Below are positions 12,214-40,600 of a stretch of DNA of 64,000 nucleotides, piece by piece. The stretch comes from Otis tarda (taxonomy: Eukaryota > Chordata > Aves > Otidiformes > Otididae). The translations under genes and the position numbers were made by a program. The first letter of the stretch is position 1. Each line of letters begins with the position of its first letter. The notes beneath the pieces were generated by a model. That model was not told the origin of the DNA and did no database searches. It was given only the letters and a program-made list of their open reading frames with translations. The stretch is taken from the NCBI GenBank assembly GCA_026413225.1, contig CM048575.1, forward strand, positions 5,174,001-5,238,000. Reading direction: 5' to 3'.

Positions 12214-15200
12214 ATGGAGACCATCCTGGAGCAGCAGCGGCGGTACCATGAGGAGCGGGAGCGGCTGATGGACGTGATGGTGAAGGAGATGCTCACCAAG
12301 AAGTCCACGGTGCGTCTGGGGCCGCGGGGAGGGGAGGCGGCCGCGGCCCGCGCTCCCCCCGCTCCTCTCCCCGCTCACCCCGCTCCTCTCCCCGCTCCCC
12401 CCTCCTCTCCCCGCTCCTCTCCCCGCTCACCCCGCTCCTCTCCCCGCAGCTTCGCGACCAGATCAACTCGGACCACCGGACGCGGGCCATGCAGGACGTG
12501 AGTGCGCCGGGGCCGCGGGCGGGCGGCCCCCGCAGGCTGGGGTGGGCCCCGGGGGCAGCGCGGGGCAGGCCAGGCCTCGGCCCGGGAGCGGGGCCGGTAC
12601 CCGGTGACGCGCGCTGCGCATCTGAGGCTTTTTTTCGTTTTGCAGAGGTACATGGAAGTGAGCGGCAACCTGAGAGACTTGTATGACGACAAGGACGGGT
12701 AAGTGCTTGAACAGAGACCTGAGCGTCTGCTGAGTGAGGTTTGCAGAGGAGGAACCCGGGGGCTCCTTCGAGTCATTTGTAAATACGTGGAGTAATGCTG
12801 GTATGTGAGACCAGGAACCAAATTTTGGAGACTAAACCTGCTAGAGCAGAACCCAGCTCGCCCTGGCTGTGTACATGCTGGATTTCCGCGTTTTGTTACG
12901 TTCCTGTTTTAAGTTATGGGGAGAGAGCTGCCCTGGAGGTTTGTAAGGTACCGCGTGTTCAGTGGGAGACGGGACCCGGAGCCTCAGGCTGTACGTCTGC
13001 AGAGTGAGATGTGCTGTGGTGTTCTGAGAGGTTGCAGTCAGTCTTACTGGAGCTTTCTGTGAGCAAAATGCAGCACTAGGTCTGGAAAAAAGGTTACATC
13101 AGTGGCAACATGTTTTCCTTTACGTTTGTAATCTTTCTTTTTTCACGAACTCGCAGCTTACGTAAAGAAGAGCTCAGCGCCATTTCAGGGCCAAATGAGT
13201 TTGCAGAATTCTACAACAGACTGAAACAAATTAAGGAATTTCACCGGAAGCACCCCAATGAGGTAAGTAGTTATCTACTTGATAAGAGCAGGTCATTTGT
13301 GCTGCGTTGGACCTCATCCCTACGATAAACAGACTTTTTTTTTCTGGTTTGGTTGCCTTAATATACAAGTACTGAGTACAGTAAGGCCAGGCAGAGGCAG
13401 TGTAGGCTCTTGGGAGAGCGGTGTGAGCAGAAGACACCAGGTGCCAACCGTGTCCCCTGTGTGCTAGCTCAGGAACGTTCTGCTGCCGCGTGCTGGTGAA
13501 GTCAGATTTCTTTCGTTGTGCAAAAGTGGTGCTGGAGAAATGCTTTGGCTACCAGCTTTATTGTGTGCAGCCTGTTGTGGTTTTATATTAATTATCCTGG
13601 GACATCAGCCGAAGTAGTAATTTTTTCTGTCGCTTCTGTCTGTTCTTGAAGATCTGCGTTCCGATGTCAGTGGAGTTTGAGGAACTGTTGAAGGCCAGAG
13701 ATAACCCGAGTGAAGAAGCTCAAAGTAAGTTTGTAGTTTTTCTCTTGGGGCCAGTTGAAGTGAAAATACGGTGCTTGCTTGAGAGGCGTGATTTAATAGA
13801 TTTTTGATCTGTTTTGCATGTTTCAGAGTTCCGCCTCCCTTTTACTAAATGGCTTCTGAAAGTTGCTCTTTTGCCATTTAAATTCTTCTGAACTGCAGCC
13901 CCCGGGAATATTCCGCAGTAGTGGTGCTCCTCTTGGGGAGCGAGTGTCAGGTGAACGATCAAGGAGCGTCCCACTTGCACTGTAAACATCATCTTAGGCA
14001 TAAATTAGTCCACAGTTCATCCTTTTGAAGTTCTACAGCATAGGTATAATAAGTCAGGAAGGTGAAGCTCATAATAAAGCTCTTCGTGATCTTTCCTTCA
14101 GATCTGGTGGAGTTCACAGATGAGGAAGGGTATGGGCGATACTTAGATCTGCATGATTGTTATCTCAAGTACATTAATCTGAAATCGTCCGAGGTAAGTG
14201 GCTGCATGTGTCTGGGCAGCTTCAGCGCTTAAGGCTGCGGGGTTTTTCTTTGCTCGGTTCGTGGTTATTTGGTTTTTTTTTTTTTAATGTGAACAAGCTG
14301 ATTTCCAAACAGCTATTTCAAAGCCACTTTGTTGCACGTACAGCTTGCCAGCACCTGGATTTTGAATGCTGCTTCGTGATTCTTCTCTTTTGTTCTCTTC
14401 AGTTGCTGTCTCTCTGTCGTTAATGTAACGAAGGCCTTGTCAAAAGCCACTGTTTGCTGCTGCCAAGCGCTGCTCAGTGTCTAAGGCACAGAGAGGCCCA
14501 GGCCTCCGCAGCCCCTAATAATGGCACGAGCTAGTGCTTTTCTCCTGGTCTGGTAACTGGAAACTGGGTGTTAATTGGGCCACCTGGGGATCAATTCTGA
14601 CTCAAACTCTTTCATTCTTAGAAATTGGATTATATTACTTACTTATCCACCTTCGACCAACTCTTCGATATTCCCAAGGAGAGAAAAAATGCTGAATATA
14701 AGAGGTGAGCCTTTTTGCCTACCTGCGTCTTTTGTGACACTTGATGAGAAGGAATTCGCTTCTTAAATGTACAGCTGCTAAGAATATAATTAACAGTGAA
14801 ATTTACCCGTGGAATTGGGTCGCTCAGCTACACTAACTCAGTCTGAGCCCTGAGAAAACATCCAGTGCAGCAAAAATGTGGAAGGACCTTACTTTCTCCT
14901 TGCAACTGCTGCATCTAGAAATTGTGTGTTGAAAACTGTCATAATCTTGATGACTTCCATTTGGAGTACACTTGGGCAATTATTTTCCAAAGATGTTATT
15001 AAAGAAATATGTTAGAGGTTGGTACTGAGTGACCTGTGCTGGTGATTACTCTGCCAGGTACCTTGAAATGCTTCTTGAGTACCTACAGGAATACACGGAT
15101 CGAGTGAAACCGTTACTGGACCAGAATGAACTTTTTGGGAAAATCCAGACTGAGTTTGAGAAGAAGTGGGAAAATGGAACGTTCCCTGGCTGGCCGGTGA

Positions 15201-18200
15201 GCAGTCGTGAAGCCCACGGGAACACTTCTGTGTTGGTGATAGGTTTTCTACGAGTCATTTGTCTAAAGCTGTTTCTGAGGTTCAGTCTAACAGCAAAGCG
15301 TGTAGTTCTGGATCACAACGATGCACTTAATACTGGCTTAAACTTGAAAACCAACGTGGCTGGTTTGAAGCGTACCTTTTTAAGGTTTGCCTGTTTTCTA
15401 TCTCTTCTGTTGTTCTGTAGCTCAGTTTAGTGAGAGAATTTTTCTCTGAAAGGAGCTGCTCTTTTTGGGTTGGACTATTATACTGCATGAAGTGTTGTGA
15501 GATGTCACAAAGACCTTGCGTGTGGTTTTTCTTGGCAGAAAGAGACCAGCAGCGCACTGACTCATGCTGGAGCCCACCTGGATCTATCGGCATTTTCTTC
15601 TTGGGAGGTATGTTTTCAGTGCTCTGCACTTAGTGCTAAATTTTGGGCAGGCGGAAGCGTAGTCATTTTGTTTCTCTTCATAATTTTAGTTGCTGTGCTT
15701 TCGCCTCTGGCGCTGCGCTCTCTGTATAAAACTTTGATTATGCTGACAGCTTAATTTCTCCTATGGGGGAGATGTAACTTGAAAGATCTGGTTAGGTTTG
15801 TTACATTCCTCATTTTTTCAGTGAGGAGTGGTACACCCTTGACAGTCCTTTCTTGAATGCTGTTTGTTGTTTATTTTTTTCATGAGTTAGAATGGACATA
15901 CATCCGTATTGCATTTGTTTAATAGCTTCTTTCTTACTGTGATTTGCTTTAATTGAACAGGAATTGGCTTCCCTGGGACTGGACAGATTAAAATCAGCTT
16001 TACTGGCCCTGGGACTTAAATGTGGCGGGTAAGGTGTAGTCTTTATATAAAGTTCCTTTTCAGGTTTTGAGGTCTTCCTGTCTTGCTTTCCTTTATGCAA
16101 TACTTGTTTTGTCCTCTCTGTTGTACAATAATTACTTTAATGATGTTTGAAAGACAAAACATTGAGTACCGATCGGGGGATACTGTGATCTATTGTTTTG
16201 AAAAGCGTCCTGTACTGGAGTCTCCTGTATAGAGAATTTGGCGTAAGGAATGAGGATGAGGAAATCTCATGAGCTCTAAAAAGCTAAATTTAGAATTTTG
16301 TTGCATGAATTCAAACAGTTATCGGGAAATGTAAGACTGTGGTTTGGGCTCATCTCTTCCCTGCTTCTCCACAGGACTCTGGAAGAGCGTGCTCAGAGAC
16401 TTTTTAGCACTAAAGGCAAATCTCTAGAAGCACTTGATCCTTCCTTGTTTGCCAAGAATCCAAAGACAAAAGGAAGCAAGAGGTGAGTTCCTACAGGTCA
16501 TTGTCAGGTTGGTGGTGCTCTCTTCACTTGGATGACAAGTATTCTACAGACATTACTCTTGTATAGTCATGGCGGAGAGAGTCTTAGGGTGTTAAAAGCT
16601 TTTCCTGTTGGACCAAATAGTCCTGAAGGAAATGGAAGATACCAGAGCTGAACGGTTTGTATGCAGTTTAGTTGACATGAGCTGTCTGGGACTTGTTTCT
16701 GGTTTTTTGTTGTATACAAGTCAAAGGTGTCTTTAGGAGATCGGTGTACGCATAATGTTTGCGGTTCTGGAATGGACTTAATAAAGTTTCCTTCTCTATT
16801 TCCAGAGACACTGAAAGAAATAAAGATCTTGCATTCCTGGAAGCTCAGATTTATGAGTATGTAGAAGTTCTTGGGGTAAGGATTTTATTTTGTCTTTGAG
16901 CTTTTTATTTCAGAGCTGTCAAATACCAACTGGAAAGTCATCCACATTTCTACCCAGTGCTTTCATAGACAGCATGTCCAGGGTCGTAATGTTCTAAAGT
17001 GCGTGTTAGCAGATAGCTTTTTCCATCAGTAAGTAGAATATGGTGAATTACATTTCTGTTGCTGTTAGCTGATTATTTGGCAGGCTTTTGTGAACAAGCA
17101 TGTTCACATCCCAGACTCAGATACAGAGGCTACGTGTTCCCTGTAGCCTGTTTTGTCTTTTTCTTTTCTTCTTTTCTTCTAGGTAACATATCAATGTAGG
17201 TAACTTCTATTTTGTGCCTAAATCACAGGGTATTGCAAACCTTTACTTGTTCTGCCATGATGCTTGCCTTAAGTTCTTGCTTCAGTTTGGGGCGACTGCT
17301 TTTAGCAGGATGGCTGTTGCTGTTAGCTTGTCACCTTGGAAGCGCTGATGGTAGTACAAGTCTTTCATTCTTTGCAAGTAGGAAATGTTATACTAAAAAC
17401 TTAAGTTGTTGGGCTAAGTAAAATGAGAGTTCTCTGTTTTGTGTTGGTCTTTCATTCCCCTCCTTCTGTACACTGAGGAAGCGTTTCGTGCTGGAAGAGC
17501 TTGCCCTTGTTGCTGTTGTGGTGTTTGAACAATTCCTTCTCTTTTCTCACACTCTAGGAGCAGAGACACCTCACTCATGAGAATGTGCAGCGTAAGCAAG
17601 CACGAACAGGGGAGGAGAGGGAGGAGGAGGAGGAAGAACAGATCAGTGAGAGTGAGAGTGAAGATGAAGAAAATGAAATTATTTATAATCCTAAAAATCT
17701 GCCTCTTGGTTGGGATGGCAAGGTAACTGAGAGTGTCAGGTGTGGGGAAACGGGAGACGCCACTGACTCCACACTGCTCCTCTGTTTGAACCTGCCTTGC
17801 TGTTTGGCCTAATCTTTGTTTCTCTTTGCTTGCCAGCCAATCCCGTACTGGTTGTATAAATTACACGGATTAAACATCAACTACAATTGTGAGATTTGTG
17901 GTAACTATACCTACCGAGGGCCCAAAGCTTTTCAGCGTCACTTTGCAGTAAGTAACCTTTTACTCCAGACACGTCAGTGCTATGTTCAGATACGCTTTAT
18001 AGTAAGTAATTAGGAAATCACCGGTAGTCTGGTGTGCCACTTGGAGTACCCAAGTGCCACTTCACTTCTGAAATGTGGGTCTGGGCTGATGCTGCAGGGC
18101 CATGCGATTGGAACTGTGAATTATGTAGGGCATGCTGAGGTCTCTTCTGCCAATTTCTGTACAGTCCCTTCTTGTTTGAACTCTTAATTCCAGTGTCCAG

Positions 18201-20184
18201 GTCTGACTGGTGCAGAGTGCCTGTTGACTGCCAGTGTAGTCTTACTGCCTAAAATACAGAAAAAATAATTTAATAGAATTTTTTAGGACTTGTAGGTTTG
18301 TATTTTGATAGTATTTTTTTCACCCTGTCCAGATTTTAGTATGTCTTTGATGTTGGAGATGAAGTGGCGTTCTCTCTCATACACTGACCTCTTGCCTCCT
18401 CTCCCCAGGAGTGGCGACACGCTCACGGAATGAGGTGCCTGGGCATTCCCAACACTGCGCATTTCGCCAACGTCACACAGATCGAGGATGCAGTCTCATG
18501 TAAGTAGTGATGACGTTTCTTTGCATGGAGCAGGGTCAGGTGGCGTAAGAACGCTCACGTTAGCTTTGGCTAAAAGTTTGTCTTACCCTATAACCAGAGA
18601 CTTGTTTCTGGAAGGAGGGTAAGAAACATGGTGCATGTGGGATGATCCTTGGACCATCCCTCCCACCTCTCGAAAGGACAGTGGCTTTTTTTTTTGTTTT
18701 GTTTTTTTTTTGTTTTGTTTTGTTGGGTACCTGCAGGAGCAGGTGCTTGCTAAGATTGCCAGCCAAGCGTTCATTTGTTGCCGACTGTTTTGTCTGTGGT
18801 GCTTTCTTTATGAAATCTCAGCCAAGTGCGATGGGCCACCATTTTTTCAGGCAGAATGTGTCTGCCATCATCCCACGTAACTCTTACTTGATTGATGTTT
18901 GTCAACATCTTCATGAGGACCCAGAAGAACCTTCAGAAATGGTAGAACCTTTAGGCAGATTTTGAAAGCCTACAGTACTTGGGATTTACAGTGATTATCA
19001 TTTAATGCGGCTAGTCTGTGCCAATGTTTTGAGGAGGCTACCTCACGCAGAGGTTGTTTCTTGAATCTGCGCTACTTAGGTTAACAGATACAGGTCATGG
19101 TTCCTGGAGGTAAATTCATTCTTGCCTAGAAGAAACCAAACAGCTGAAGCCTTGATTTCCCAAACAAGCTGTTCTTACCTTTGGAGCTGTATCTCTGGAG
19201 TAGTGTTTTTGGTGTCTCCTCTGTCCCATCCTGAATGATCGCTTCAGAGCCTTGCTTGCTTTAGTTCTTGTGCCTTTCAGTGAAGCGTACAGGGAAATGA
19301 TAAATTTGTAATGGATATTAGATGCATTCCTGGACTGCTGAAGTGACAGTGTTTTAAAATAAAAAGCTTGTGTATGTTTTACTAGATCAAAAACTACTAT
19401 CTCAAGGGAAATGGCATCAGATCCTGTATGACTTTGTATTTACAGTGTGGGCAAAGCTGAAACAACAGAAGGCTTCAGAGAGATGGCAGCCCGATACAGA
19501 GGTGAGACGTTCTAGAGGCTTTGGATGTCTCTAGTCCTGTGCACGTGGGAACCCCCCATGCATGAACTGTCTGGCTCTGTCAAAAGAATTTCTAAGAGAG
19601 CCCCCTGCGTGCTGGAGAGAGAAGCAGGAACCTGCACTGCTGGTTGCACAGCTCCTGTTAGTGGTGATGTATGAAAAGCACTTCTTGTCCTGTACTGGAA
19701 AGTAGTTCTGATGGGACAGACTCAGCCCGTTGTGTAGAAATCTTTTAATACACTGCTTTACAGTACCAACGTCATCTTTGTTTTCTGAGAAGAAAGAGGA
19801 ACTGCTGTGAGCAATGTGTTCACTTATCCTAGTGCCTTTTCGTAAACTCACAGCTCAGAACATTTTTGAACAGCACGCAGGGTAGCTGTGGGAAATACAG
19901 CCTGTCGTACAGCTTGTCGTTATTCTAACTCTGGATAAGCTCTTCTCCTGGAGCCCGCTGTAGATCCCCTGCGTACCGTCACGCAGAGAAGGTCGTGGCA
20001 GGGTGGTCGTGTTCAGTAGGCAGTGCTGGAGCTAAAACTCAAATGCTGTTGTACAACCCGAGTCAGGCTGTGTCCAGGCGTCTCTGAACTGTTCATTCCC
20101 TTCTAGGAGGAATACGAGGATTCCAGTGGGAATGTGGTGAATAAAAAGACCTATGAAGATCTGAAACGTCAAGGGCTGCTGTAG
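12214..20184 (+). CDS. SF3A3: SF3A3, splicing factor 3A subunit 3 / SF3a60 (17 exons, 501 aa)
   Basis: Exons: 12214-12309, 12450-12497, 12646-12698, 13157-13262, 13652-13724, 14102-14193, 14622-14704, 15058-15196, 15539-15607, 15961-16028, 16375-16482, 16806-16875, 17558-17722, 17837-17947, 18409-18499, 19446-19501 and 20107-20184. All are GT-AG, phases close, and the sum of 1506 nt gives 501 aa, the same length as human. The protein is nearly identical to mammalian SF3A3. It starts [14 protein letters not shown] and has an acidic Glu/Ser-rich segment at about residues 350-377. A matrin/U1-type C2H2 zinc finger has Cys408, Cys411, His425 and His431. The conserved tail is [14 protein letters not shown]3a60 joins SF3A1 and SF3A2 in the SF3a complex, which converts 15S to 17S U2 snRNP and helps U2 bind the branch site in the nucleus. 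Expression is expected to be ubiquitous from the CpG promoter. Confidence 0.98.
12351..12447 (+). repeat. Tandem CCCGCTCCTCTCC-type array in SF3A3 intron 1
   Basis: Intron 1 is only 140 nt. Its last 100 nt are a degenerate tandem array built from CCCCGCTC, CTCTCC and ACCCCGCTC units. The array itself forms the polypyrimidine tract that ends in CCCCGCAG. Such arrays vary in copy number, so the length is not certain. Confidence 0.75.
18687..18724 (+). repeat. T-rich (TTTTG)n tract in SF3A3 intron 15
   Basis: Runs of 9-10 T are interrupted by single G residues. It is a simple repeat with no coding content. It could be an old poly(A) tail of an antisense retroposon, but no body of one is recognisable next to it. 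Confidence 0.7.
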
Positions 20185-23096: not shown

Positions 23097-26000
23097 ATGG
23101 CAGGTTGCCGATGGCTCGTGCCCTCCGTTCAAGGTAACGGGGGCTCTGCTGCAGCGTGGAGAGCGGTGCCTGTCCCAGTCCCAGCTGTCAGAGGCCATGC
23201 ACGACTCTCCGTGGGGCGAGGGGTGGCTGCTGGTCACCCAGGGCTCTGGGCAGGTGGAGGGGGTCTTTCTGCAGCAGCGCTGGTCCCCTGTGGCCAGCAC
23301 GGGTCCCTGACCCCAGGTGCATCTGTGGGGTTCCCCGTGACCTCTCCAGGGAGGCTGCTGGGGGCTGGATTTGGTGTTTCAAGGACGAGCTGCCTGTGCT
23401 GCTGGGGAGGCTCTTTGCGCTGTGGGTAAAGCGGGCAGCAGATGTGGTGGTCTCAGGTGTCCCCCTTCCATTCCAGGCCTGCTGCTCTGCGTCTTGGCTC
23501 TGCATCTCTGCGTCCAGAACCCTCTTGCCACAGCAGGTGAGTTCTGCATGCCAAGGGAGACCTGGGGGTCCTGCGGGGAGCTGGGGCAAAGGCAGTGTGG
23601 TGCAACAGGGGCTTTGTCCCTCTCCCCTCCAGGCTGTACTCTGTAGGACAGACCTGCACTGAGGAACGTTTTTTTTCCAGTTTTGACCCCAGAAAAGCCT
23701 GTTCTTCACATGCAGTGTGACTGGAAGGGGAGGGGAGAAGCTGCTGTGACATCTGTCCATAGTGCTGCTGCGGTAGTCTCTTGTCTCTGACCTGCTTGTC
23801 AGGCTGCCTGGACCTTCTTTGGGTCATCCTGTCATCTCCTGCCATCCACGTCCCAACCACAGTGGGACTGATGCTTCCCACAGATGCCTTTGGACCGTGC
23901 AGAGGCTCAGGAGGGGATGCAGGGCTGGCTGAGAGCAAGGTTGGTGTTTCCTTCACCAAGTGGGAATTTTTTTGTCTTCCAGAGCACAACACGACCGCCA
24001 ACGTCTCGGTGGCCGCCAACGCCTCTGTGAACAGTACGGAAGTAACATCGGTAAGGGAAAGGAAGGGAAGGGAGCTGGTGGCTGGGCCGTTACAGCCCCA
24101 CGGACAGGACCTCTAGCCCGACTGGTCTCTTGCAGGAGGCCCATGAGAGCATCTCCTGGGGTGGAGTTGGGAGCACCTCGGGGACGGCAGGCAGGGGTGC
24201 AGAGGCAGCCCCTCCAGACAGCGAGGCCGTGGTTGGGGACAGCAGCGCGGTGCCGTGCAAGGAGGCCTTGCTATGTGGTGACACCGTGGTGTGTTCTCTC
24301 TGCAGCTCACCTGCCAGAGCTTTCAGTGCTCTGGGGAGAGGTGTTACCAGGATGAAGCCCATGCCAACGAAACGGTGACCTGCCATAACGAGACTTACTG
24401 CGAGGTACGGCGCTCGCTGAGGCAGAGGCACGGGGGGGCTGTGATAGGGAAAGTCTGTTTTTCCTTTCTTTATATCGGGAATCCACGGGACTCTTAAGTC
24501 TGTGTCAATCTCCTGTTTCCCTTCTCTCTGTTGCAGTCTGTCAGTAATTTTTGCTCCTTTGTAATGGCATCTCTTCACACTCCTACCGTTTTTTCCCTTT
24601 GGCTCTGCTATTGCAGCTTTACCGTTTCTCCAGCGCAAACTACACAGCCAGGTGCAGCAGTGCATGCGGCACGCCGATGTGCAGGACCAACAGCAGCGTG
24701 AGCACGCAGCACTGCGCCCTGGACTGCTGCAACAACTCGCTCTGCCTGCAGCTCAATGCCAGCTCCTACGGTAACTGCCTGCAGTGTCGCCGGCGGCGGT
24801 CTGAAGTTAATCCTGCAGCACAGGAGGGAGATGGGTGGGCAAAACCCCGTGGCAGAGGGGTAGCCGTGGCTGCGTCGCCATGCCTCCTCTGCCCTGGGGC
24901 TTGTTTGGAGCTGGGGTGAGGGGAAGGGGTGCCCCAGCAGCTCTGGCCGCAGCATGAGCCATGCTCATGAATCTGTTCCGTGTGTGGCTGTGGAGGGGCT
25001 TTGTGCTGGGCGCAGCCTCACTGGGGTCCTTGTGTGTCTGCAGGTGACCTGCCACCCACCACCGTGCCGCCTACGACCACCACCACCACCACCACCCGAG
25101 CTCCCCCTCGAAACGTAGGTACCGGCTGGGCAGACGCTGCTGCGGCCGTGGGCTCTCCTGGGGGCTGTGGGCTCCGGGATGGCTGAGCTCCCACCTGAGC
25201 GGGGGAGAGGGAAAGGTGCCTCCTGTGCCTGCTTTACAGGGTCAAAAGCTGCCTCTGGAAGGGGAACAAATCCTTGCTGAGCTCTGAAAGCAAAGAGTCC
25301 ACAAGGAGCCCTGTCAAACAGGCCTTTTCCTGAGCCCAGCCCTTAGGCTGGTTCAAGCAGTTTGAACCGAGTGCGTGGTGAGCCTTCCTCGCCGGCGCGG
25401 GGGCCGGTGGGGCACTGCAGCCTTTCTCCTCAGCCTATGAGGAGGGGAAGGCGCTTATCTCTGCAGAGCCCTGTTTAAGAGGAAGGAAAAGGAGGTTTGC
25501 AACTTGTTTGCTAGGCTGCTGTTTCACTCCAGTTGCCTGCAGTGTCAGACGGGGCGCTGTTAGTCTGTTATCTCTTGGTATCTGAAATGCCTGGGACAGC
25601 ACTGGCCAAATACCGAAAACAGAGGGGGATTTAGAAAGGAGCCCTCAGGAAAGAAGGGCTGTCTGAAGTTCAATTCTTGTCCTGCTCTCCGGACTGAAGA
25701 ATATACAGTGTCTCCTCTGGCCCTCCCTTGTAGGGAAAAGTGTGTGCGGCATTCTCCTGTCACGGGGACGGATGTTTCAAAGGCAAGAAGACTGTTGCTA
25801 GATGCATTGTTGGGCATGACTTCTGCGAGGTATGGCCTTGGGGTTAAAAAGCGGGACAGCATGTGAGCTGGGATGTGCCCAGGGGCCTGGGTGCGTCCCT
25901 GTGATGTCGACACTAAAGGCTTGGCAGGACCCCCAGGCTAATGTCTGTCTCCTCCTTCCAGATGAAGAAGACGGGCTTGAACTACATGGCTGGATGCAGC

Positions 26001-26222
26001 AGAGCCTGCAAGGCTGCCAAACCGGTCTGTGCTGGTGGGATGAAGGCTGCTTGTTACCAGGAGTGCTGCCCAGCTACCCTGAAGGCCAGCTGTCTGAAAC
26101 TGGATGGCAAAGTTCACGTCAATAGCGCTGGGCAGGTGACCCCGGCCCTGCTCTTGAAGCTCCTGGTGTGTGGGGTGGTTCTGCTCCTGAATTACAGGGT
26201 CTCAGCTTCCCTCTGGGGGTAA
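23097..26222 (+). CDS. Ly6/uPAR-like two-domain GPI-anchored protein (8 coding exons, 281 aa), unnamed
   Basis: Exons: 23097-23133, 23477-23536, 23983-24050, 24306-24404, 24617-24770, 25044-25114, 25734-25829 and 25962-26222. Phases close over 846 nt. The product starts MAGCRWLVPSVQ. Residues 13-32 form a hydrophobic signal peptide. Four N-glycosylation sequons (Asn35, 39, 45, 49) follow. Cysteine domain 1 covers about 56-132, a Thr/Pro stalk 141-161, and cysteine domain 2 about 165-240. The end is NSAG plus a hydrophobic tail (about 255-275), as in a GPI-attachment signal. Each domain has 12 Cys (58, 63, 68, 81, 87, 101, 105, 110, 121, 125, 126, 131; then 167, 172, 177, 187, 194, 207, 211, 218, 226, 230, 231, 239). 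They begin C-x4-C-x4-C and finish with CC-x4/7-C, resembling the three-finger LU fold, though the usual Asn after the last Cys is missing. Each domain is split by a phase-0 intron at the same place. I cannot name an orthologue. A cell-surface receptor, decoy or adhesion role is inference. Confidence 0.82.
25076..25096 (+). repeat. Coding (ACC)7 trinucleotide repeat in the Thr stalk
   Basis: Seven ACC codons follow an ACG codon, giving eight consecutive Thr in the linker between the two cysteine domains. This is a probable O-glycosylated, mucin-like stalk whose length may vary between individuals. Confidence 0.9.
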
Positions 26223-27486: not shown

Positions 27487-27492
27487 AATAAA
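27487..27492 (+). terminator. Probable polyadenylation signal of the Ly6/uPAR-like gene
   Basis: The first AATAAA in an AT-rich context after the stop at 26222 would give a 3' UTR of about 1.26 kb. A TGTGTGTT element follows about 20 nt downstream. Assignment is by position only. Confidence 0.55.
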
Positions 27493-28259: not shown

Positions 28260-28667
28260 TTCCACAGAACATCAACCCCGGGCGCTGCGGGAAGGGCGCA
28301 GGCAGCGGGCCGCTCCCCTCCGGGCCGGACAGCGCTGCAGGCCGCTCCCCCGCCCCGCCGGGCACCGGACCCAGGCCGTAGCGGAGCCGCCCCCGCCTCG
28401 GGTGGTTCCCCGGCCCGGCCCCGCCGCCTCATTCAGCGCGGGGCTACCGGAACGGCCGGCTGCAGGCCGCGACCCGCGGGGCGGTGCCGGTAGCCCGGGG
28501 CGCGCGGTGGGGGACGGCACCGGGGGGGCGGGGGGCCGGGGGGGGGGCGCCGCGGGCCACGCGGGCCACGCACGACACATCGCGACAGCCGCGCCGAACG
28601 GCCGGGCCGGGGGAGCCGCCCGGAGGGACCGGCCGCGGTCCCGGGGAGCGGGGTGGCCGCGGCCAGG
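28260..28667 (+). promoter_or_regulatory. INPP5B: INPP5B upstream CpG-island promoter (P1)
   Basis: A very CpG-dense segment with G/C runs, including a poly-G stretch around 28526-28547, leads straight into the start codon of the long INPP5B form at 28668. There is no TATA box. The 700 nt before it (27.5-28.2 kb) are of moderate GC and show nothing else. Confidence 0.7.
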
Positions 28668-31600
28668 ATGGACCAGTCGGTCGCCATCCAGGAGAGCCTG
28701 GAGCCCGGGGCGAGCTGCCGGATCGTATCCTTTGTTTCGGCCAAGGCGGCCGCGGGGGCGGCCCCGCGGGGCTCCCGGTTCTCTCGGCTCTTCCTTGACC
28801 CTCGGCTGAAGGCGGTGCAGGGCGTCCTGGCTGCTGGGGAGAGCGCGGAGAGCCGGCTGCTGGGCCTGGTGGAGAGCTGCGGGCACCATGCGTGGGTCTG
28901 CGGCACCGGAGGCGGTGGGGAGGGGGGAACGGGGTGGCCGGGCGAGGTGCGGGACCCTCGGGGGCCGCCCCAGAGCTCTGCGGGTGCCCGGGGCTTTCAG
29001 CCGGGGGGGCAGCGATGGGAGGGCGATGTGCCTCGGCATTTCTGCTGTGCGCTGCGGCTGGGGCAGCGCGGGGCCCAGAGGTTTTGGTCCGGTAACGGAA
29101 ATACGTTCTTATTTAACTGACAGGGCAAGCAGGTGGGTGGGCACACGGTAGAGAAGTTGCTTTGGGGTTTGCTGGGCGCTGCGGGATGGAACGGGGTCTG
29201 TCCGTACTTGCAGCGGCACTGGAATCGAGGAGGCATCGTGTCCATGTCTGCTCCATGCTTGCAGGATCCACGTGTACACCCACCGGCGGATGGCCATAGC
29301 GGCTGAGGATGTCTGTCTGGAGAGGGTTATCCCGATCACCGAAGGGTTTGCAGTGGAGGAAGGTACTGACACCCTTTGGTGGCGTAGTGGCCACCGCCAG
29401 AGCAGGGGATTAAGAGGTTTGGAGCCTGTATTTTGTTGTTCTACTTGCTGAAATCCAGGATCTATTCAGCCTTCACATTTTTTCTTCAATTTGTAATCCC
29501 CGGTGACGCTTGTGTGTCACACAGCATAGCTGGAAGGGCCCTGCTAGATTAATTGCTCTGCAATGCAGAGCTCCCTGCGTCCTCCTAAGCGCCAGCCGCA
29601 GCCTCCCACCCCGCAGGTTTGTTCTGCCCGTCCCCGTTTGTACAAGGAGTATTTGGGGTTTGCGGAACTTACCGGGCTCGCTGACCTCAAAGTATCGGTG
29701 CGCTCTGCAAACCTGTTACTCCGCTTTCTAACTGAACTTTGTTTTGCTTTCACAGTTGTACTCGACGGCGACCTTCATGTCATCGGTGAGTTCTGTTGTT
29801 GCTCCGGTGCCTGTGTTGCAGGCGTTCCTGGGCCCTGTGCCCCCGCTCAGGGGGGCGGGAGCGGGGCTCTTGTGATGGGACTGTTGGCCGGGGGTGGGGG
29901 TCTCATCTTGCTGCTGGCGGAGGACTCGCTGTGCTGCTCGCCGTGGTTCAGCTCATGCTGACGAGCGTTGTCACCCCCAGTTCAAGCAAAGTTTAACGCT
30001 TTTAAACTGCTACTGGAAGATTGGTTATTGTCACTGAAGGAGCAGAACGGAAATTATTATACAGGCTGATTTTTATATTTTTAAATGGCGTCCTCATGTA
30101 AAATGTGGAAAAGGACCCTGATAAGGGCACGGGGAGACTTGCTGCTGAAGCCGCTGCGGAGCGGAGGAGACGCGCGATTCCTGAGGCTCGTTGGCACTGA
30201 CCAGGAGAGCTCTTCTCCCGTTGTCTCCAGGCGCTGACGTGACTGTCCGGCTCAGCTGGGAAGAGGATCAGCTCACGGTGCGGTTGCCGTTCGGTTCCCA
30301 CACGCGCACGTTCCTGCGGGAGGTCAGCCGCTGCGGCCCAGGTGGGAGCTCCGGTGGGGCTAGGCCGGGCTGGGCCAGGCCGGCCTTTTCGCCCGGGAGA
30401 GCGGCGCCGGCCGCTGAAACCGGTCCGGGCCCGCGGGAAACGCGCGGGAAGCTGCGGGCGGGGCGGGGCGTGGCTCCCGGGAGCGGGGCGTGGCTCCCCG
30501 GGGGCGGGCGGAGCGGCGGCACCGGGCTGCGGCGATGTCCGCGGGTGGGCAGCCCCGCCGAGGTGAGTGGCGGGGACTCGCCGGCTTCCGTTGCGGGGCG
30601 GGACCGGGACCGGGACCGGGACCCGAACCGGGACCCGGACCCGGACCGGGACCGGCTGCGGGCGGAGGAGTCGCGGGCAGCGGGAGCGCAGCCGGTGGCG
30701 CGGGTACCGCGGGAGCGGAGCTGCCAGCGCCGCCGCGCCCTGCCCGCATCTCCCCGCATCTGCCGGACCCCGGCAGCCTCCGAGGAGCCGCGCGTGGCTG
30801 GTTGCGGGGGTCTCTTCACCGGGCGGCCCCCCCTCCCCCCACCCCACCCCACCCCACCCCACCCCGCCGCGGTGCTCGGATCCCCGTGCTCCCGTTTCCC
30901 GCTTTGCAGAGCGGGCGTGCGGGAGGGTTCGGCGAGCTGAAGCGGTTCCTGGAGTCGGTGCGGGACGGAAAATCTGCGTGGTGCTGCTCCTGGTGTACCC
31001 GCTTCAGCCAGGCTGGGCCCCTGTGATCCGTGAAGGCGCAGTTCGGTGTCGCTGCCATTATTCCTTCCTTTTATTTCTGTGTTTATCAGTAGTGTTAAAA
31101 AAAAAAAAGAGAAGAGATGAACTTTGTAACTGAGGGAACAGTGCAGCTTGGGTTGAGCCGAGGTGGGGACCTGGAGACATCGCCTCACTGGTGTTTTAGC
31201 TTGCAGCTTAGAGCGGGCTGGGCAAGACTGGGGCTTATCTGCGCGCTTAGGACGAAAACCGTGCTGGATGAAACACAACTCTGGCTCCTTTGTTGGTGTG
31301 GTTTTGTTGTATCTGGAGCACGGTAACGCTCTCTGAATGGTAAGCTGCTCGGGAAGTGGTTCCCCTATCAAATCACGCCTTTGGGCTTTGGCAGAGTTGC
31401 CTTTTCAAGGGCTTCGTTGTGTTTTTCTCGAGTCAGAGGAGTCTAGGGACCTCTTTTTTCTTTTCTTTTTTTTTTTTTTTTTATCTTTACCTCTTGTATT
31501 AGCAGAAGAAAATGCTCTCTGCCATCACTTGGGGTCTTTTGGGACATAAGTTGATATAGAATGAGGTTTTGTCTGCTGTTTTCCAGCAATAGCTGTAACC

Positions 31601-34600
31601 CATCCTGTCCTTAAATGAACACGTGTACTGAGTTAGCAACTTTTATACGCAAATCAAAGCACATTTAAATACTGTGTAAATGCTGCCATTTGCTAGTAGA
31701 GTGCTATTAGTTCATTTTATCTTCTGTGAATCAAGTCTGGCTAATGAATAAGAACACCTGTAAAGGGATTTAAATGTGCTTTACCTTGTTTGGCTTATGT
31801 TCACCATTTCGGTTAAAACCCCTGCCTAAAATCCTATCTGTGTGCATGCCTGTGCAGTCACAGCTGCGGTGTTGCTTCATTTGCAACCCTGAAAAGACCA
31901 AACCTACTTCCCTCCAGCCCGGAGCAGCCCAGTCCTGCATGGACTGCTGCTTACACTTTCGTTAAGTAAAGAGCAGACTGGCTAAAACTCGTATCACTGG
32001 TGACAAGGCTGATTTAATTCTGCCTTTAAAACACTAGGCGCGGATCCTACTGTATCCAGAAGATACGATACATTTTCCTGCTGTAGAACAGGACTACAAT
32101 GTCACTGCACATTTTTAACAAGAAGGTGTTTATGGCTGCTTAAATCTCCTTTAACTGCAAATCCTGTCTGATTCAGACCATGCACGCTCTGCTGTTCTGT
32201 AATCTCTGAACATAGCTCTCTCTTTCTGGGCCCAGTTCAATTATTGAACAAGGTCATTATCTTGCTAAAAGTATTCCACTTCAGATTGCTAATGTATAGA
32301 TCCCTCTGGCTAGAGCAATCTGTGTCTAGGTATAAATTTATCTAAAGGAAACAGCCCTTTTCCAGGGCTAATCTATTTATTAGGACAATCCTACCTATAA
32401 CTGATTGTGGCTAATGAGGTTAGAATGCAAAAGTGTGATATATGACTGTGATCTTTGGATCCGTGTCGGCAGCGCTGAGGAGGCACGCAAGTCTTGCCAC
32501 TCCGGCACTAACGCCTTCCGCGTGCTGGCAAGTGTCATCCTCTGTATGGGTAATAAAGCCTGAGCTGCTGCTCCCTTACTGTTATCAAAGTAACAGTTGT
32601 CTGTTAAGTGAAAGTTCAAGTTGGTTCTTGTCACCGTTGAGATACATTGCACGGTCTTTATCGGGAGAACTTACAGAGCCTCAAGCAGCACTGATTAAGT
32701 ACTTAATATCTGTGGAGAAAATTGATGCCTCTGTCCCAGCTCTCCGAGAGCACGCTTCACAACGCATCTCTGAATGCGTTGAACTCCTGTTCAAGTCTAC
32801 GTGACTCTGGCTGTGTGATCTGTAATGAGGTTTGAGTCACGTGCTCTTCTGCGACCAAGCTCTAATAAATCCTCTTACACACTGTTTATTCTCAAAGGGC
32901 TCTTGGGCAGAAGAGGTTTTCCAAGCGGAGAATACGGCTGCTTCTTGTCAGCTTGTTGATGTTCTGAGTGCTTAGATAGAGTACTTCAAGTTCTGTATCT
33001 GGTTTGTGCTCTGATCTTGGAGTATGTACTATGACAGCAGTAACGTTTCAGTTTTTCTGGGTTGTGCTCGCTGAAGGAGAAGCTCAGTTGAATGACTAGA
33101 ACCTTATAATCTTAAGAACAATTTCTGCATCATCATGAGATTCGTGGGCTAAATGGCATAATCTTGAGATTGCTGTTTGTGCGTCTTAATCACGGAGACC
33201 CCCACGCAGAATCCTCTTTTTTAACTGTTACTTTGCAACCTGTAGGATCAGAATGCTGTAACTGAGACGAAATGCTGAAAGACTGGTTGAATTTTGCTAA
33301 CGTTGTGTGATGTGTTCAGTGTCACGCCTGTATTTGGTTTTATTTGCATGGTAGCAGCCCTGTTATTTTTCTTAGGAACGTGCAGTTTGCATTGAGGCAC
33401 TTGTTTCTGCTGAGGTACAGTGGGTTCATGTGGTGACTCTGTACTGTGCTGCCTCGAGACTCTTGTGCTTTGCTATGTCTTTGCAGATCGGCAGAAACCC
33501 TTTAAATGGTAGCGTGGGTGAGGTTTTTGGTGGTTTTTTTTTCCCCTCCCCTTTGTCTTTCTTTCGTTGTACTTCCTGTCTTGCTTCAGAAAGGAAAAAC
33601 CTGTTATTAACATACATTTTTTGGATTCTCAGGATAAAGCCCTGGATTTTGTGCTGCAAAATCCTGGTTTGGCTTAGCTGTAAGGTTGAGCCAACAGCAA
33701 CCTGTTCCAGCAGCAGGCGGGCAGCATGCAGCAGTTCTGCTCTCCATGGCCGCGCAGCGTGCTAGCGTCAATTCTTCCTCTGGAGAGGAAGCTGCATTGT
33801 CACAGAACAGTTCTGTCAAAATAAGCTAAATTTATCAGATAACTGAAAGCCAGACTGCGGGGCACTTTGTTTCTCCACACAATCTAAATTATATTTTGCT
33901 CACAGGCTTTTACCAGTGTTTGCATAAGTGTGTTGATAAATTAAAGAACACTTTGTGTTTAAAGTGAAACTTTTTTTTTTTCTTTTCCCCCCAGAAGTGG
34001 TTGGCTCTGAAAGCATCAAACAGAATGGAAAAAAGCTTGCAGCTAGTCAGAACCGGAGCCACGACAGCACCGATAAAAGTGCTCCCAGGTATGGTATCTC
34101 TCTCACGTCTTGTGTAGGTTTGGTGAAGCAGTTGAAGGGGGATTTGTCCACGTCAGCTCTTTGTGGAAGGTCTAGTGAGGAGTAAAAGTGGTGGCAATGT
34201 TTCTTTGCTGGTTTAGCTGTGCCTACCCTCCACGTAGGATCTCCGTGTAGTGACAGTAAATACATACAGCACCAGAGTTCTGAGTGCTTCTTGGTGATTG
34301 TGTGTGGGAGGAATGAACTGCGGTGGGCAAATTGTTGATGCTTTGATGTCTAGAGGAAGAAAAGGAAAGCAAAGAGAGCTTTCTTTCTGGGCTTCCTGGT
34401 TTTCAGCTGGAAACCGAGTGGGGAAGTTGGTCTCTGGTGCCAGCGTGTGAGGTCTGTGCATGCACCAGTGTTCGAGCAGTCTTGCGGCTGCATTAGCTAG
34501 TTCCATCTGCTGGCGACCGTGTTGGCTGCAGTCCCCAGAGGTGGTGGGATCTACAGCAGAAGTTGGGAACTTTTTGGGAAGAGAAGCTTCAGACTCTAGT

Positions 34601-37600
34601 TAGTTGAGAAAAAAAAATCAGCATAAGCATGCTGTCAAAACTTTAGTGGGAATTTCAGCACAGTCGCTCAGAGAGAGTCCTGCTAGTCCCCTGTTTGGGC
34701 ATATTTTTGCTGTTTAGTGGGACACAACTTGCTAGCATTGTTTATTTTGACTTCAGAGAGCTTTGGCTTAGGGCCAGGGTCTCTCATAGATAGACTCTTA
34801 AAATGATGCAGTTTCATTTTCCAGTTCCCAGGACTTTGTGGACCCTGCTGCGTATCGTTCAAAGCCTGTCTGTGTGCTGTCCTTGGCACTGGTGTGCAGG
34901 TTGTTGACCTTACATTTATACCATCCACTCGCTTGTGGGAACTCCCAAGCTGTGGCATTATTACTGTTGCAAAAGGAGTTTGCAGAGCCAGGAGATACTA
35001 AATAAAACCACCTCCACCCACTCTGTGCTGCCTCCTTTCTAGGCAGAGCTGTGAGTTTTCCACCAGAAGGCTTTTTAAACAAACAGTTTTTCATTCTTCT
35101 GCTGAGGGAGGCCAGAAGGGCTGAGCAGAGGCAGCGGGAGATGAGGTTTGCATCTCCTTGCTCCACTGAGCAGGAAAGGCGTACAGATTAATATATCGAT
35201 ATCCAGGTGTACGGCCTGCTCTGAATCAACAGGCTGCACCAGGTTAGTGAAAACCATTTGTTTTTTCAGTTAGTTAAACTGGTTTTATCTAGAAATCTGA
35301 ACTGTTCTAAGAAATGCTCACTTCAGTCTCGTTTGCTTACCCCAAAGGCTGATTATCTATCTTTTGTAAAACAGACAGATAAATGCAGTCAAGTCCTTGG
35401 TGGCAGGAATAAGCTGTTTAGGGTGTGGGTATATCCTGGGTGTTGTCATGCAGTTTTGCTTTTGTTTGCAGGCAAAACAAACTCAAACCTGAAGTGACGA
35501 CTGAAATGATACGGTCCTCCAGCGTAATGGTTTCAAACAAGGCTTCAATCTTATCAGAACCAAAGTTTGGACTAAGAGATACTATTGTTAAATCTCGCCT
35601 TGTACAAATGGAGGATTCCTACACAGACATCCAGCACTTCAGGTAACGATCATTCCTGAGAAGAATGTATTTTTGCGGGGAGTAAGTTAGCTAGCGTAAG
35701 CTGTCCGAATAACTCATGTTCGTTATTTAAGCTAGTATCCCTGCAAATAGGAAATCTTGTAGAAAAGTATGATCCGTCCTTTCCAGAGCAGCTTTTTATC
35801 CTTGTTTAAGCACTAGCAGAGAAGCATTTCATTCACGTCTCTGTCAAGGCTTGCCTCGTGGTTCTTGTTGAGCAAATGGCCTTTTTGAAATGACTTTTTG
35901 GTGTACTTCTTTTAGACCGTGTCTGGAAATGCCTCAATTGTGTGCACCTCTGGCCTTCTCTCTCACAGCTTCTTCACAGCTTCTGTTCATTACTTACCCA
36001 TTTGGTTGTTCCAAGAAGCTCGTAAGAGTTTGGGGAAAATGTATAATTAGGACCAAAACTTTACTGTGGTTGAAATCCTTTTATGCAAGTCATTCTATGA
36101 ATTTATCATTTAAAACTGCTACTGCAGAGCTCTAGTATTCTTTTTTTTTTTTTTTTTTTTTACTACTTTCTGTAAAAATGTGTATCCTTCTGTAACGTGT
36201 CTGTAGAGATGCTACTGTAATTAAATAATTTTAGGAATTTAAACTTTGTCACGTTTTCCTAATTCCCCCCTGGAAACATGTTACTCCTAAATAGTTATAT
36301 GTAGAATTGAGTATATAGGTATTTCCGTCAGCTCTACAAATTGCAGCTCTGGGATTTAGTTAATTTCTTTGCAGGTTTTTCGTTGGGACATACAATGTGA
36401 ACGGTCAGTCACCCAGAGAGAGCCTTCAGCCTTGGCTGAGGTGCGATGCCGAGCCTCCAGACATTTACTGCGTGGGGTGAGTGTCTCTTTCTGGCCTGTC
36501 CTTCCAAACCTGGACTGTGGGATGCTTGCCTGTGAATCTGTAGCATGAAGGTGTCCAGCCCAGACGCTGCAGCTGAGGAATGTTTGCGCTGCCTTACTCC
36601 ATCGCACAGCTTGAGAGCGTGTGTTTGCATAGCCTGAAAGGGCTGTCAGTCTGGTAGTGTCTGGAGACTCTGGCGCTGCAGTGTTACAAAATCTTTAATG
36701 CCATTCAATTTAGTACAAATAGTAACTTAGCTTTACCTTTAACATACCTCTAAAATCAGCATAACGGAATTTGAGTTTTCAGCTATAAATTTAGTGAGTA
36801 TACATTGATTTAGTTCTTTCCCAGAGGAAAGGGCTGGAGCGTTATAAACAAGTGCATGCATCCATAGATTCCTTCCTCTGACACAGTTTCCAGGAGCTTG
36901 ATCTGAGTAAAGAAGCCTTCTTTTTCAATGACACACCGAAGGAAGAAGAATGGTTTAAAGCTGTAACTGATAGTCTTCACCCAGATGCCAAATACGCAAA
37001 GGTAAATGAGGCTTTTGGGGAGGTTTGAGTGTGGAATCATTTTCCACTTGGGCCCCTTTTCCTTTCGCTTTCCGTTGTTCTCAATTGCCGGTCTTCCAGA
37101 GGCTCACTGTCTGCAGGCTTTTGCTCAGTCAGAAGTGCTCTGAACATGAAGTAGGTAGTGTTGCTATGGAGGGTGCCGGGGCAGGAGACTAGAGGTAGGC
37201 ATCCACGCATAAAGGAACCTCCTGCTATCTTTGGAAAAGAGAATAGGAAGTATCTTAGCATCTTCCGTGTCTGTCTCCGCAGTGCATGGGTGGAATGAGT
37301 TGTGAAGGCATCTTGGTAGGAATACTGCTTATGTTTTGGCTCCTGCTCCTTAGGGCTGCTTTGTCTCTCCTCACTGTTGTTGAAAGGAAGCTCCTTCCAT
37401 GGGCTGTGCCTGTGCTGTACGTTCTGCTTTGGGCTTCAGCTTCATTTACTGGGGTGTTGGTCCCTGGCTCCCTCCTGCGCTGTGCAGCTGGAGTGCCTGC
37501 GTACTGTGAGCCCAGCTGGTCCGTTGGATGAGCCTGGAACTCTCTTTTTCTTCATCTGCGTTTTGGTAACTCGTGTTCTGGACTGGGGAGCGATGTGCCT

Positions 37601-40600
37601 TCTCTCATCAAACCCCTCCCGTTCCGGTATTTAATGGAACAGAATCTGTTTTTCAGGTGAAACTTGTGCGGCTCGTGGGAATCATGCTTCTGTTGTATGT
37701 GAAAGCAGACCTTGCTTTGAACATCTCTGAGGTGGAGATTGAGACTGTGGGAACTGGAATCATGGGGAGGATGGTAAGAACGGCAACTGTGCGTGAGAAG
37801 AGGTGAAATTTAGAAGAGCCCTGGAGAGCTCCTCTCCTTAGGTGTCGTGGTTATTCCTCCAGCTAAGGGGTGCAGCTGCCTTTAGAAGCACATAGTCCCG
37901 TCCCTGCGCCAGCTCAGGGCGTTGCTTGAGGGAATTGCCATGTGCTTGCAAAGGCTCAAAGGCCTTGAAGGAGAATTTTCTCTGAAGGCTTTTTTTTTTT
38001 TTTTTTTTCCCCTGATTGCTGTACTGGGCTGTGTGGGGCCTTGCTCTCATGTGTTTTGATGCTGGCTGTGATTTTGCCCAAACCAAATTACACAAGGTAA
38101 CATGAGCAGAAGAAACACGTCTCTCCAGATTAGTTTTCCTGAGGAGGACTTACTGCCCTCTTGTCATTCCACAGCATTGGAGTGGAGTCAGGGCCCTTTG
38201 AATGTAGTTTCTGTGAACATTTATCTATAACTTGACAAAAGGTATTTTTGACCAGCTAAGCCATGTGCTTCCTCCATTTACAATTTTTTTATAGTTTGTG
38301 TTGAAAGATCCAGTTTGTTGCTAAACAGGTTTCAGGACTTGCTGAAGTAGCTGACCAGCTCTCTTACTGAGTTTAATTTCCTTCTGTATGAGCTAATTCC
38401 TGAATTACAAACTGAGTTCCGTGTGCCTGCTTGCTGTGTTGGGTTGCCGTGTGCAACCCCCACATGACTTACTGACTTGAATTCATGAAGTAGTTATCAC
38501 CAATTGGTGTTTTCAGCCTTTTCCTTCCTCTGGAATTAAATGGTCTGCCTCAGTGTCTTCTGGCTTGTCCACTGCTTATAACTTGTTTGGGGATTCATCT
38601 GTTGTGGAGAAAGTTCTGACCAACGTCTTTGTCTTTATTTTTCAGGGTAACAAAGGTGGTGTTGCCATAAGGTTTAAATTCCATAACACTAGCGTGTGCA
38701 TTGTGAATTCTCACCTTGCAGCTCACACGGAGGAATATGAGCGGAGGAACCAGGATTTCAAAGATATCTGCTCTCGAATGCAATTCTACCAGCCGGATCC
38801 AAATTTGCCCCCTCTCACTATTGGCAAACACGAGTACGCTTCCCATCTGAACCTTGTGAACCACTGCACGTGGCGAGGAAGAACCTTAAGAACGTACTGG
38901 GGTGCGAGGGATGTGAGAAGGGGTGCCCGGTGATCTAATTATCAGCCTGGAAGGGCCAGAAGTGCTTTACCATAACGCTGGTTTGGAGAGTGGTCACCTA
39001 TACAGTTCTGATAAGTCACTTGCCTTCTCCTGCTCTTCCAGGCCTTTTTTTTTATTTTCAAGCATGAAGTGGGAATGGGGCAATAATATGCATCGATTTC
39101 CCCAGTGGGTTGTGGGATTTATTCAGCATGGAATATTAAAAACACCGGATACTAAGAGTTAGTGACAAACATGCAGAACAGGAATTAAAAACAGCAAAGG
39201 TAGAAAATGTAGCTTCTCTTTCCAGCTTTTACTCTTACTTGTTCTCTGATGGAGACACAGAGCAGACACAGCATCTGTTTGATCGTGTCGAGATTAGGAG
39301 AGCTCACGCTTGCATCGAAAGGTTTAAGGTGCCGCTGCGGAGCTGTGCTTCCCGCTCGCAGCCAGCTTGCCTTCTGGACATCTGTAGGCCTCTGTGCAGA
39401 CTGCTGGTCTACGTTCTCTTTCAGTGTGATCTTATGGTTGGGTGACCTCAACTATCGGCTGGATGACCTGGATGTGGCAAAAGTGAAGCAGCTTGTGGAT
39501 GAGAAAGCGTTTCTAGAGCTTTGCCAGTATGACCAGGTACTGATGTCTCGCCTACCTGCAGGTGGTGCTGAGGGTGCAGGTTACAAACTGCACACGTTCT
39601 CCTCAGCCTTCTCCCTGCTGAACATCTCCCTTTCAGCTCTTATGGGAAGTGTGCTTGAGCTTATTTAAATTTTGTGTGTGTGTGTTGTTTTCTTTTGTAG
39701 CTGAAGAGGCAAATGAATGCAAATGCCGTCTTTGAAGGCTTTATGGAGGGAGATATTTCTTTCCAGCCAACATACAAATATGATGCTGGCTGTGATGACT
39801 GGGACACAAGGTACAGTGGTTGCCTCGCATGTGATGCTACCAATGGCTAGTGTTATCACTGAAGGAAGTAAAAACAAAGCTGAAAAGAATTGCAGATCTA
39901 ATGGTTATAAATAGGAACCGTTCTGAGATTATTGCTGTTCCTCTCCCTTGGGTTCAAAATCCATCTCCAGCTTACTCACAGTTTACGTCTATCTATGTTG
40001 CTTTTCTTCCATTGCTACTTGTCAGATATTCCTAATCTTTTTCCCAGGAATAATCTATTGAGTTTCCTCTTAGTTAGGGTGTACAAAATAAGGAATCATT
40101 TTAGTTTCATTCTTTTGGTTTGGTTTCATTTGGTTGGGTTTTTTTCCCACGCAAAATTTTTAGGATCTTTTATTTGCTGATATCTGCTATACCTACTCAG
40201 TTCAGACATTTTCCTGCAAGAACCATCATTCGTGATGGTTCTGATCCAGTGCCTGATCTGTTCTTAGTAAACTGGGAACGTTGGCTTCAAGCGTGGGAAT
40301 GAAATCTGTGCAGCAGTCAGTGGAAAAAGAAAATTAAAATGTTAACTTTAAATGTAGAGCCTGAGTTCTTCTTATTCATGATTCTTATGGTCAGAAGTGT
40401 CTCTGAGTATTACTTTGTATGTTAAGTGTATCAAAAGAACAAAACAAATAATTACATCTTCGAAGAAGTAGAAAGTGAAGCATGATATCGAGATACCTAA
40501 TAGTAGACGATCAAACTTTTTATTACTACTCTAAGAAACTCTGGAAAACAAAACTTTGATCGAGAACTAAGTCCAGGCCTTGTCAGGAAAGCAGTCTTTG

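Follow-up and report, generated by a model that had tools for sequence, protein, structure and literature searches.

The window analysed here, a 64,000-nucleotide stretch of the Otis tarda genome, contains an 8-exon coding gene on the + strand at positions 23097-26222. Spliced from the window sequence, the exons give a single open frame of 281 amino acids with one terminal stop, GT-AG borders at all seven introns and intron phases 1,1,0,0,1,0,0, so that the eight exons with intact splice sites and phases proposed in a sequence-only reading of this DNA could be rebuilt. Exon 1 (23097..23133, + strand, as are all features below) carries the start codon and the start of a predicted signal peptide (aa 1-13), and exon 2 (23477..23536) its hydrophobic core (aa 13-33). 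Exon 3 (23983..24050) encodes a short Asn/Thr/Ser/Ala-rich stalk with four N-glycosylation sequons. A first Ly6/uPAR (LU)-like domain, D1, is divided between exon 4 (24306..24404, Cys 1-5) and exon 5 (24617..24770, Cys 6-12) and is followed by a Pro/Thr-rich linker (exon 6, 25044..25114). The first half of a second such domain, D2, is encoded by exon 7 (25734..25829, Cys 1-5), which is also present in two monkey gene models; exon 8 (25962..26222) supplies the second half of D2 (Cys 6-12), a conserved stem, a hydrophobic C-terminal tail and the stop. The signal peptide and GPI-type tail of the window protein were assigned by hydropathy only; the AlphaFold model of the ibis orthologue has a signal-peptide helix at residues 13-27. 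A possible polyadenylation signal, AATAAA, lies at 27487..27492 and would give a 3' UTR of about 1.27 kb.

The same reading had placed the gene between SF3A3 and INPP5B, and both flanks were indeed matched in the window. SF3A3 lies to the left (12214..20184; ATG at 12214, stop at 20182-20184) and is matched by a desman gene model. INPP5B lies to the right (28668..42705; ATG at 28668), where the end given is that of the last stretch matched by a langur model and the gene may extend beyond it. FHL-type LIM-domain exons, read by eye, are found upstream of SF3A3 at 2404-5323 (+ strand); we take this gene to be FHL3. A further gene start at 46297 is presumably MTF1-like, and the order FHL3-like, SF3A3, INPP5B, MTF1-like resembles the human 1p34.3 order.

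An exon-wise search of the bird's own genome, with the best candidates scored, yielded no accepted paralogue: seven matches are the gene's own exons, and seven of the eight others (E 0.0064 to 6.35) carry internal stops. We conclude that the window gene is real and probably single-copy.

Cysteine-rich domains and their predicted fold

Each domain contains 12 cysteines (D1, aa 58-131; D2, aa 167-239) with 73-74 residues from first to last, confirming the count made from the sequence alone. The two domains share 28% identity (E 2e-9 in a single comparison), and in both a phase-0 intron interrupts the coding sequence at the equivalent position, just past Cys5-Glu. Because D1 and D2 are related and interrupted at the same site and in the same phase, a two-exon domain unit was probably duplicated to give both. 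All 24 domain cysteines are invariant in an alignment of 22 rows (21 sauropsids and the mole). In a second alignment of 11 rows, reaching from teleost and shark to bird, 22 of the 24 are found in every row and C87 and C211 in 10 of 11, with C87 replaced by Leu in Latimeria and C211 falling in a gap in Mugil. The residue missing from Latimeria, Cys 5 of D1, sits right at the exon border, and its loss is taken as a probable gene-model error.

AlphaFold models of two orthologues, from ibis and gecko, match the three-finger LU proteins uPAR, C4.4A, TEX101, Lynx1 and GPIHBP1, which agrees with the fold anticipated by the earlier reading. LU or three-finger proteins occupy the first 25 of 39 rows in Foldseek, and the best 50 of 95 in another listing agree. 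The best matches are uPAR, C4.4A (E 7.8e-4) and TEX101. By order, D1 of the gecko model comprises strands A-F and D2 five of the six. At the level of sequence, the Pfam LU family matched none of 46 proteins (sets of 1, 36 and 9) up to E 10, and searches of Pfam and NCBIfam returned nothing relevant. Hits to T2SSM (best 0.0062, 2 of 36 members), to MUCL1 (0.012, one teleost) and to a lantibiotic model (0.012, mole) were taken as low-complexity or chance matches. PDB sequence searches gave chance matches only (glucocorticoid receptor, E 1; zinc finger, 0.05).

According to PMC6600238, the LU domain is a three-finger fold with six strands extending from a cysteine-rich core, 60-90 residues long, with 10 cysteines paired 1-5, 2-3, 4-6, 7-8 and 9-10 and an Asn invariably placed directly after the tenth. 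The same review describes a two-exon unit that generally has phase-1 introns on both sides and is split by a further intron at the loop-2 tip (PMC6600238). The three-finger fold is present in both AlphaFold models, and the cysteine order in both window domains fits the ten standard residues plus two more. Read by order and in the window's own numbering, the five LU disulfides are probably 1-5, 2-3, 4-6, 7-10 and 11-12, and the sixth, 8-9, is probably an extra pair in finger III of each domain. In two dolphin models Cys 8 and Cys 9 of D1 are lost together (Tyr and Gly instead), a weak fit to such a bond.

The residue following the last cysteine is Leu, not Asn, in both domains (L132 in D1, L240 in D2; 11 of 11 rows), with Asn (D1) or mostly Asp (D2) three positions further. 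This finding rests on the 11-row alignment and not on our motif scan of segments preceding D1, which fixes 'CL' by construction. The D1 exon pair lies between phases 0 and 1, and the D2 pair starts at phase 0; flanking phase is a weak criterion, since PMC6600238 says 'generally'. Mapped onto the gecko model, the internal intron lies on the first strand of loop 2, some 5-6 residues short of its tip. Because the predicted fold and the plan are shared, yet the published signature is not reproduced, we call the window protein LU-like and, on its sequence and the models of its orthologues, place it outside the published LU signature.

Stalk, tail and comparison with known LU proteins

Conservation is uneven along the protein. 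Across the 22 rows of sauropsids and mole, mean pairwise identity is highest in D2 (0.70), followed by D1 and the stem (0.66 each) and the linker (0.63); the tail (0.43), the signal peptide (0.39) and those stalk columns that are present in the window (0.29) vary more. Finger II of D2, FCEMKKTG, is retained at each position in 18 to 22 of these rows and is more divergent in bats and fishes; Q228-E-C-C, A233, S238-C-L and L242-D-G are found in 22 of 22. The conserved stem motif is LDGKVHxNxA.

The segment preceding D1, counted with its signal peptide, is 38 residues long in the mole and three bats and reaches 392 in the bird Pseudopipra, as located by a motif scan that places the start of D1 wrongly in models without exon 4. 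It measures 57 residues in the window bird, 220-392, with imperfect repeats, in several passerines and galliforms, and 107-121 in some other passerine models, and stalk length in birds possibly changes rapidly. Its Ser plus Thr content is lowest in some squamates (about 10%) and highest in the mullet (47%). In the window protein, aa 33-55 are rich in Asn, Thr, Ser and Ala, with two acidic residues. The sequences behind the spread in length are P0074, P0077, P0078, P0081, P0016, P0046 and P0075.

We examined the tails of 16 sequences hand-picked from 92. The best 15-residue mean hydropathy is 1.4 to 3.0 in all 16; models that end otherwise lie outside this sample. In birds about ten residues of mixed character come after the hydrophobic stretch, and both AlphaFold models show one long helix at the tail, features that would suit a type I transmembrane protein with a very short tail and no GPI anchor. 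However, in the mole, Desmodus, platypus, Podarcis and two teleosts the last 15-16 residues hold the most hydrophobic 15, and the protein ends where the hydrophobic stretch ends, with no room for a cytosolic tail. We therefore consider a transmembrane protein unlikely, and we infer that the window protein is probably GPI-anchored.

C4.4A (LYPD3) resembles such a protein in having two LU domains and a GPI anchor (predicted here). In C4.4A a Ser/Thr-rich region is placed after the LU domains, whereas in the window protein the Ser/Thr-rich parts precede D1 and link D1 to D2; cysteine pattern and locus also differ. From uPAR (PLAUR) the window protein differs in having two domains with 12 cysteines each and in its locus; moreover, uPAR D1 is described as being without the 7-8 bond in PMC6600238, and the corresponding cysteines are present in window D1. 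GPIHBP1 and SP-10 (ACRV1) similarly have an extra exon encoding a disordered segment N-terminal of the LU domain (PMC6600238), but they have a single LU domain and the segment of GPIHBP1 is acidic, in contrast to two domains and a non-acidic, glycosylation-prone segment here. LYPD6 and the ectodomains of the type II activin/TGF-beta receptors also have the LU fold, in their case with an additional disulfide that stabilises loop 3 or tethers its strand E (PMC6600238). These are one-domain proteins, unlike the window protein, and the type II receptors lose a standard bond, whereas the window domains can keep the standard number and two further cysteines. The GPI-anchored proteins of zebrafish chromosome 21 have two LU domains with the standard cysteines complete in both (PMC6600238), but these are 10-Cys domains encoded in a gene cluster, in contrast to 12 cysteines and a gene with no neighbouring copy.

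The known human multi-LU genes all map to 19q13, and their first domain is without the 7-8 bond, according to PMC6600238. The window gene could be a displaced member of a 19q13-type cluster (uPAR, LYPD3, LYPD5, CD177, TEX101), given its two LU-like domains, its probable GPI anchor and its best fold matches to uPAR, C4.4A and TEX101. We find this improbable: the PDB sequence searches gave no match to those proteins, D1 retains the cysteines equivalent by order to LU 7 and 8 (C105 and C125, in 11 of 11 rows), the flanking intron phases are unlike the usual phase 1, and homologues exist in shark and teleosts.

Homologues and the history of the locus

With the window protein as query, 64 of 540 candidates reached E<=1e-3; they come from birds, turtles, a gharial, squamates and the mole Talpa, together with some unnamed contig fragments. 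The ibis protein (P0001) matches over 100% of the length (BLAST 82%, aligned 90%), with 93% identity over 225 columns of the tree alignment, and because of this full-length match the gene is not a chance construct. The same 93% identity, the eight open exons, the wholly intact splice sites and the retention of 24 of 24 domain cysteines make it very improbable that the gene is a relic, silent or transcribed, in the window bird.

A second search, with the mole protein, gave 23 of 2311 candidates and added five bats (Rhinolophus, Desmodus, Phyllostomus, Glossophaga and Rhynchonycteris), two dolphins, the hippopotamus and the titi monkey. A third, with a profile of 16 relatives, gave 84 proteins at E<=0.01 among the 7990 candidates sharing most words; its additions include platypus (1.2e-81), coelacanth (2.1e-42), horn shark (7.1e-38), a ray (4.7e-36), mullet (4.3e-16), a second teleost, desman and langur. 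The counts include isoforms and fragments. The searches require shared 5-residue words and similar length, so that short or eroded models and one-domain relatives under about 150-165 aa escape them; that these three word- and length-limited searches gave no amphibian, marsupial, rodent, carnivore or human match proves little. The orthologues that had been expected in other birds were found by protein search in birds and reptiles alike.

Chickens reportedly lack GPIHBP1, and the gene might be imagined to replace it outside mammals as an LU platform for lipoprotein lipase. We give this almost no credence: platypus and bats also carry the gene, other LU proteins score about as well, and the GPIHBP1 N-terminus is acidic (PMC6600238), in contrast to aa 33-55 of the window protein. 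A sauropsid-specific gene, one of the two options of the sequence-only reading, is refuted. It was suggested by a first search with almost exclusively sauropsid hits (birds, turtles, a crocodilian, squamates) but is contradicted by the mole in that search, by the bats, dolphins, hippopotamus and titi of the second, by the platypus, coelacanth, shark, ray and teleosts of the third, and by desman, langur and titi copies that chimeric models place at the same locus.

In a tree of 33 rows, ten taxonomic labels are accommodated by nine label changes, the minimum possible. Starred branches (9 of 30 inner branches) include those of birds, birds plus crocodilian, shark plus ray, and mammals, and the platypus is outermost within the well-supported mammal group. 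Squamates are joined at 89/90; turtles are not resolved, with Pelodiscus beside the mammals (90/83). Most deeper joins are weakly supported, and the placement of the long fish branches is unsure. Since the topology follows taxonomy, as expected under vertical descent, a single gene has most likely been handed down in this way from the common ancestor of jawed vertebrates onward. The gene is older than tetrapods, because homologues are present in coelacanth, shark, ray and teleosts.

The sequence-only reading held that mammals have nothing between SF3A3 and INPP5B. Evidence to the contrary comes from chimeric gene models in desman, langur and titi. The desman model (P0086), annotated as SF3A3, matches in tblastn the SF3A3 exons in order (12214-19513) and then exon 4 (24309-24413) and exon 8 (25959-26129) of our gene. 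In the langur model (P0091) a match to exon 7 (25707-25829) precedes one to INPP5B (28809 to 42705), and in the titi model (P0073) a match to exon 7 precedes one to the start of INPP5B (28656-28736). The SF3A3 and INPP5B portions of the chimeric models were confirmed by Pfam. Because these mammalian homologues lie at the same locus, an empty interval is therefore not general among mammals.

Residues 17-49 of the titi model, unrelated at first sight, are exon 4 in the wrong frame, spliced toward INPP5B. They are compatible with the exon-4 peptides of the mole and two bats at 26, 26 and 27 of 33 positions; shuffled maxima were 16, 15 and 15, and none of 2000 shuffles reached the observed value in any of the three comparisons. 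The window's own exon 4 is compatible at only 15 of 33 positions (2 of 2000 shuffles as high), and the remaining frame gave no signal (13-15 of 33). Exon 6 was recognised by eye in the same model. INPP5B thus appears to be preceded by exons 4, 6 and 7 in the titi, a New World monkey, and by exon 7 in the langur, an Old World monkey. Wrong-frame models such as that of the titi conceal the locus from protein searches.

The other option, a gene lost from mammals, is too simple. Both domains are complete in models of the mole, the platypus and the bats Rhinolophus, Desmodus and Phyllostomus (the last with a different tail); other mammalian models are partial. Two other bat models are without exon 4 or more, two dolphin models are without the first half of D1 and the first three D2 cysteines, the hippopotamus model has the first half of neither domain, and the desman model is without exons 5-7 and one exon-4 cysteine. 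The gene appears eroded in dolphins, hippopotamus, desman and monkeys, though automatic models can be wrong in each case. The apparent mammalian history is one of patchy retention and decay, not plain absence. Exon 7 differs at 1 of 32 residues between langur P0091 and titi P0073, which seems slow for a relic.

Proposed role and database names

Given the gene itself, its homologues, the synteny in three mammals and the predicted fold, we consider it likely that the locus encodes an ancient, divergent, two-domain LU-like surface receptor, vertically inherited, predicted to be GPI-anchored and with a proposed co-receptor or adhesion role. The protein would enter the secretory pathway and probably be GPI-anchored at the surface, arranged from tip to membrane as a glycosylated stalk, D1, the flexible Pro/Thr-rich linker, D2, the stem and the anchor. 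By analogy with LU receptors it would have no cytosolic part and would bind protein outside the cell, as a co-receptor or adhesion molecule. Our best guess for the ligand contact is D2, through its finger II, which is strongly conserved in sauropsids; the variable stalk may keep D1 off the membrane, as a spacer or shield. Ligand binding, like the anchor type and the disulfide pairing, is a proposed part of this scheme, and taken on its own an extracellular ligand-binding function seems to us possible rather than probable. The gene would have been kept in some mammalian lines while apparently eroding in others.

This two-domain receptor would extend the multi-domain LU-like proteins to a locus away from the known human clusters, and it would provide a naturally occurring three-finger variant with 12 cysteines. 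It would also offer an easily followed case of a single gene whose models are complete in platypus, mole and some bats but partial or decaying in dolphins and monkeys. More speculatively, and on balance doubtfully, it may represent a separate, unrecognised lineage of multi-domain three-finger receptors that has had its own 12-Cys disulfide plan since the first jawed vertebrates and a role at a contested interface. If so, the bird stalk, which differs several-fold in length, and the fixed domains would be what is expected of a receptor at such an interface (pathogen, mucus or gamete), and repeated mammalian decay would mark the loss of that role. The lineage would have been overlooked through erosion in mammals, invisibility to Pfam and its mucin and yeast names.

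No accepted name was found in the database labels, in keeping with the earlier remark that none was known, and no paper naming the gene appears among the matches listed from the open-licence literature. If our reading is right, two housekeeping genes flank a nameless surface receptor that dates back to the origin of jaws and to which automatic annotation gives at least nine borrowed names. Apart from uncharacterized, the source names are mucin-5AC-like, mucin-2-like, mucin-22-like, 'integumentary mucin C.1', 'PB18E9.04c-like', 'pneumococcal serine-rich repeat protein-like', 'serine-rich adhesin for platelets-like', 'cell wall protein DAN4' and, for the chicken entry, 'putative GPI-anchored protein pfl2'. 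The borrowed names probably stem from the low-complexity stalk. Names of yeast or bacterial origin stand on the vertebrate entries P0088, P0046, P0013, P0054 and P0075.
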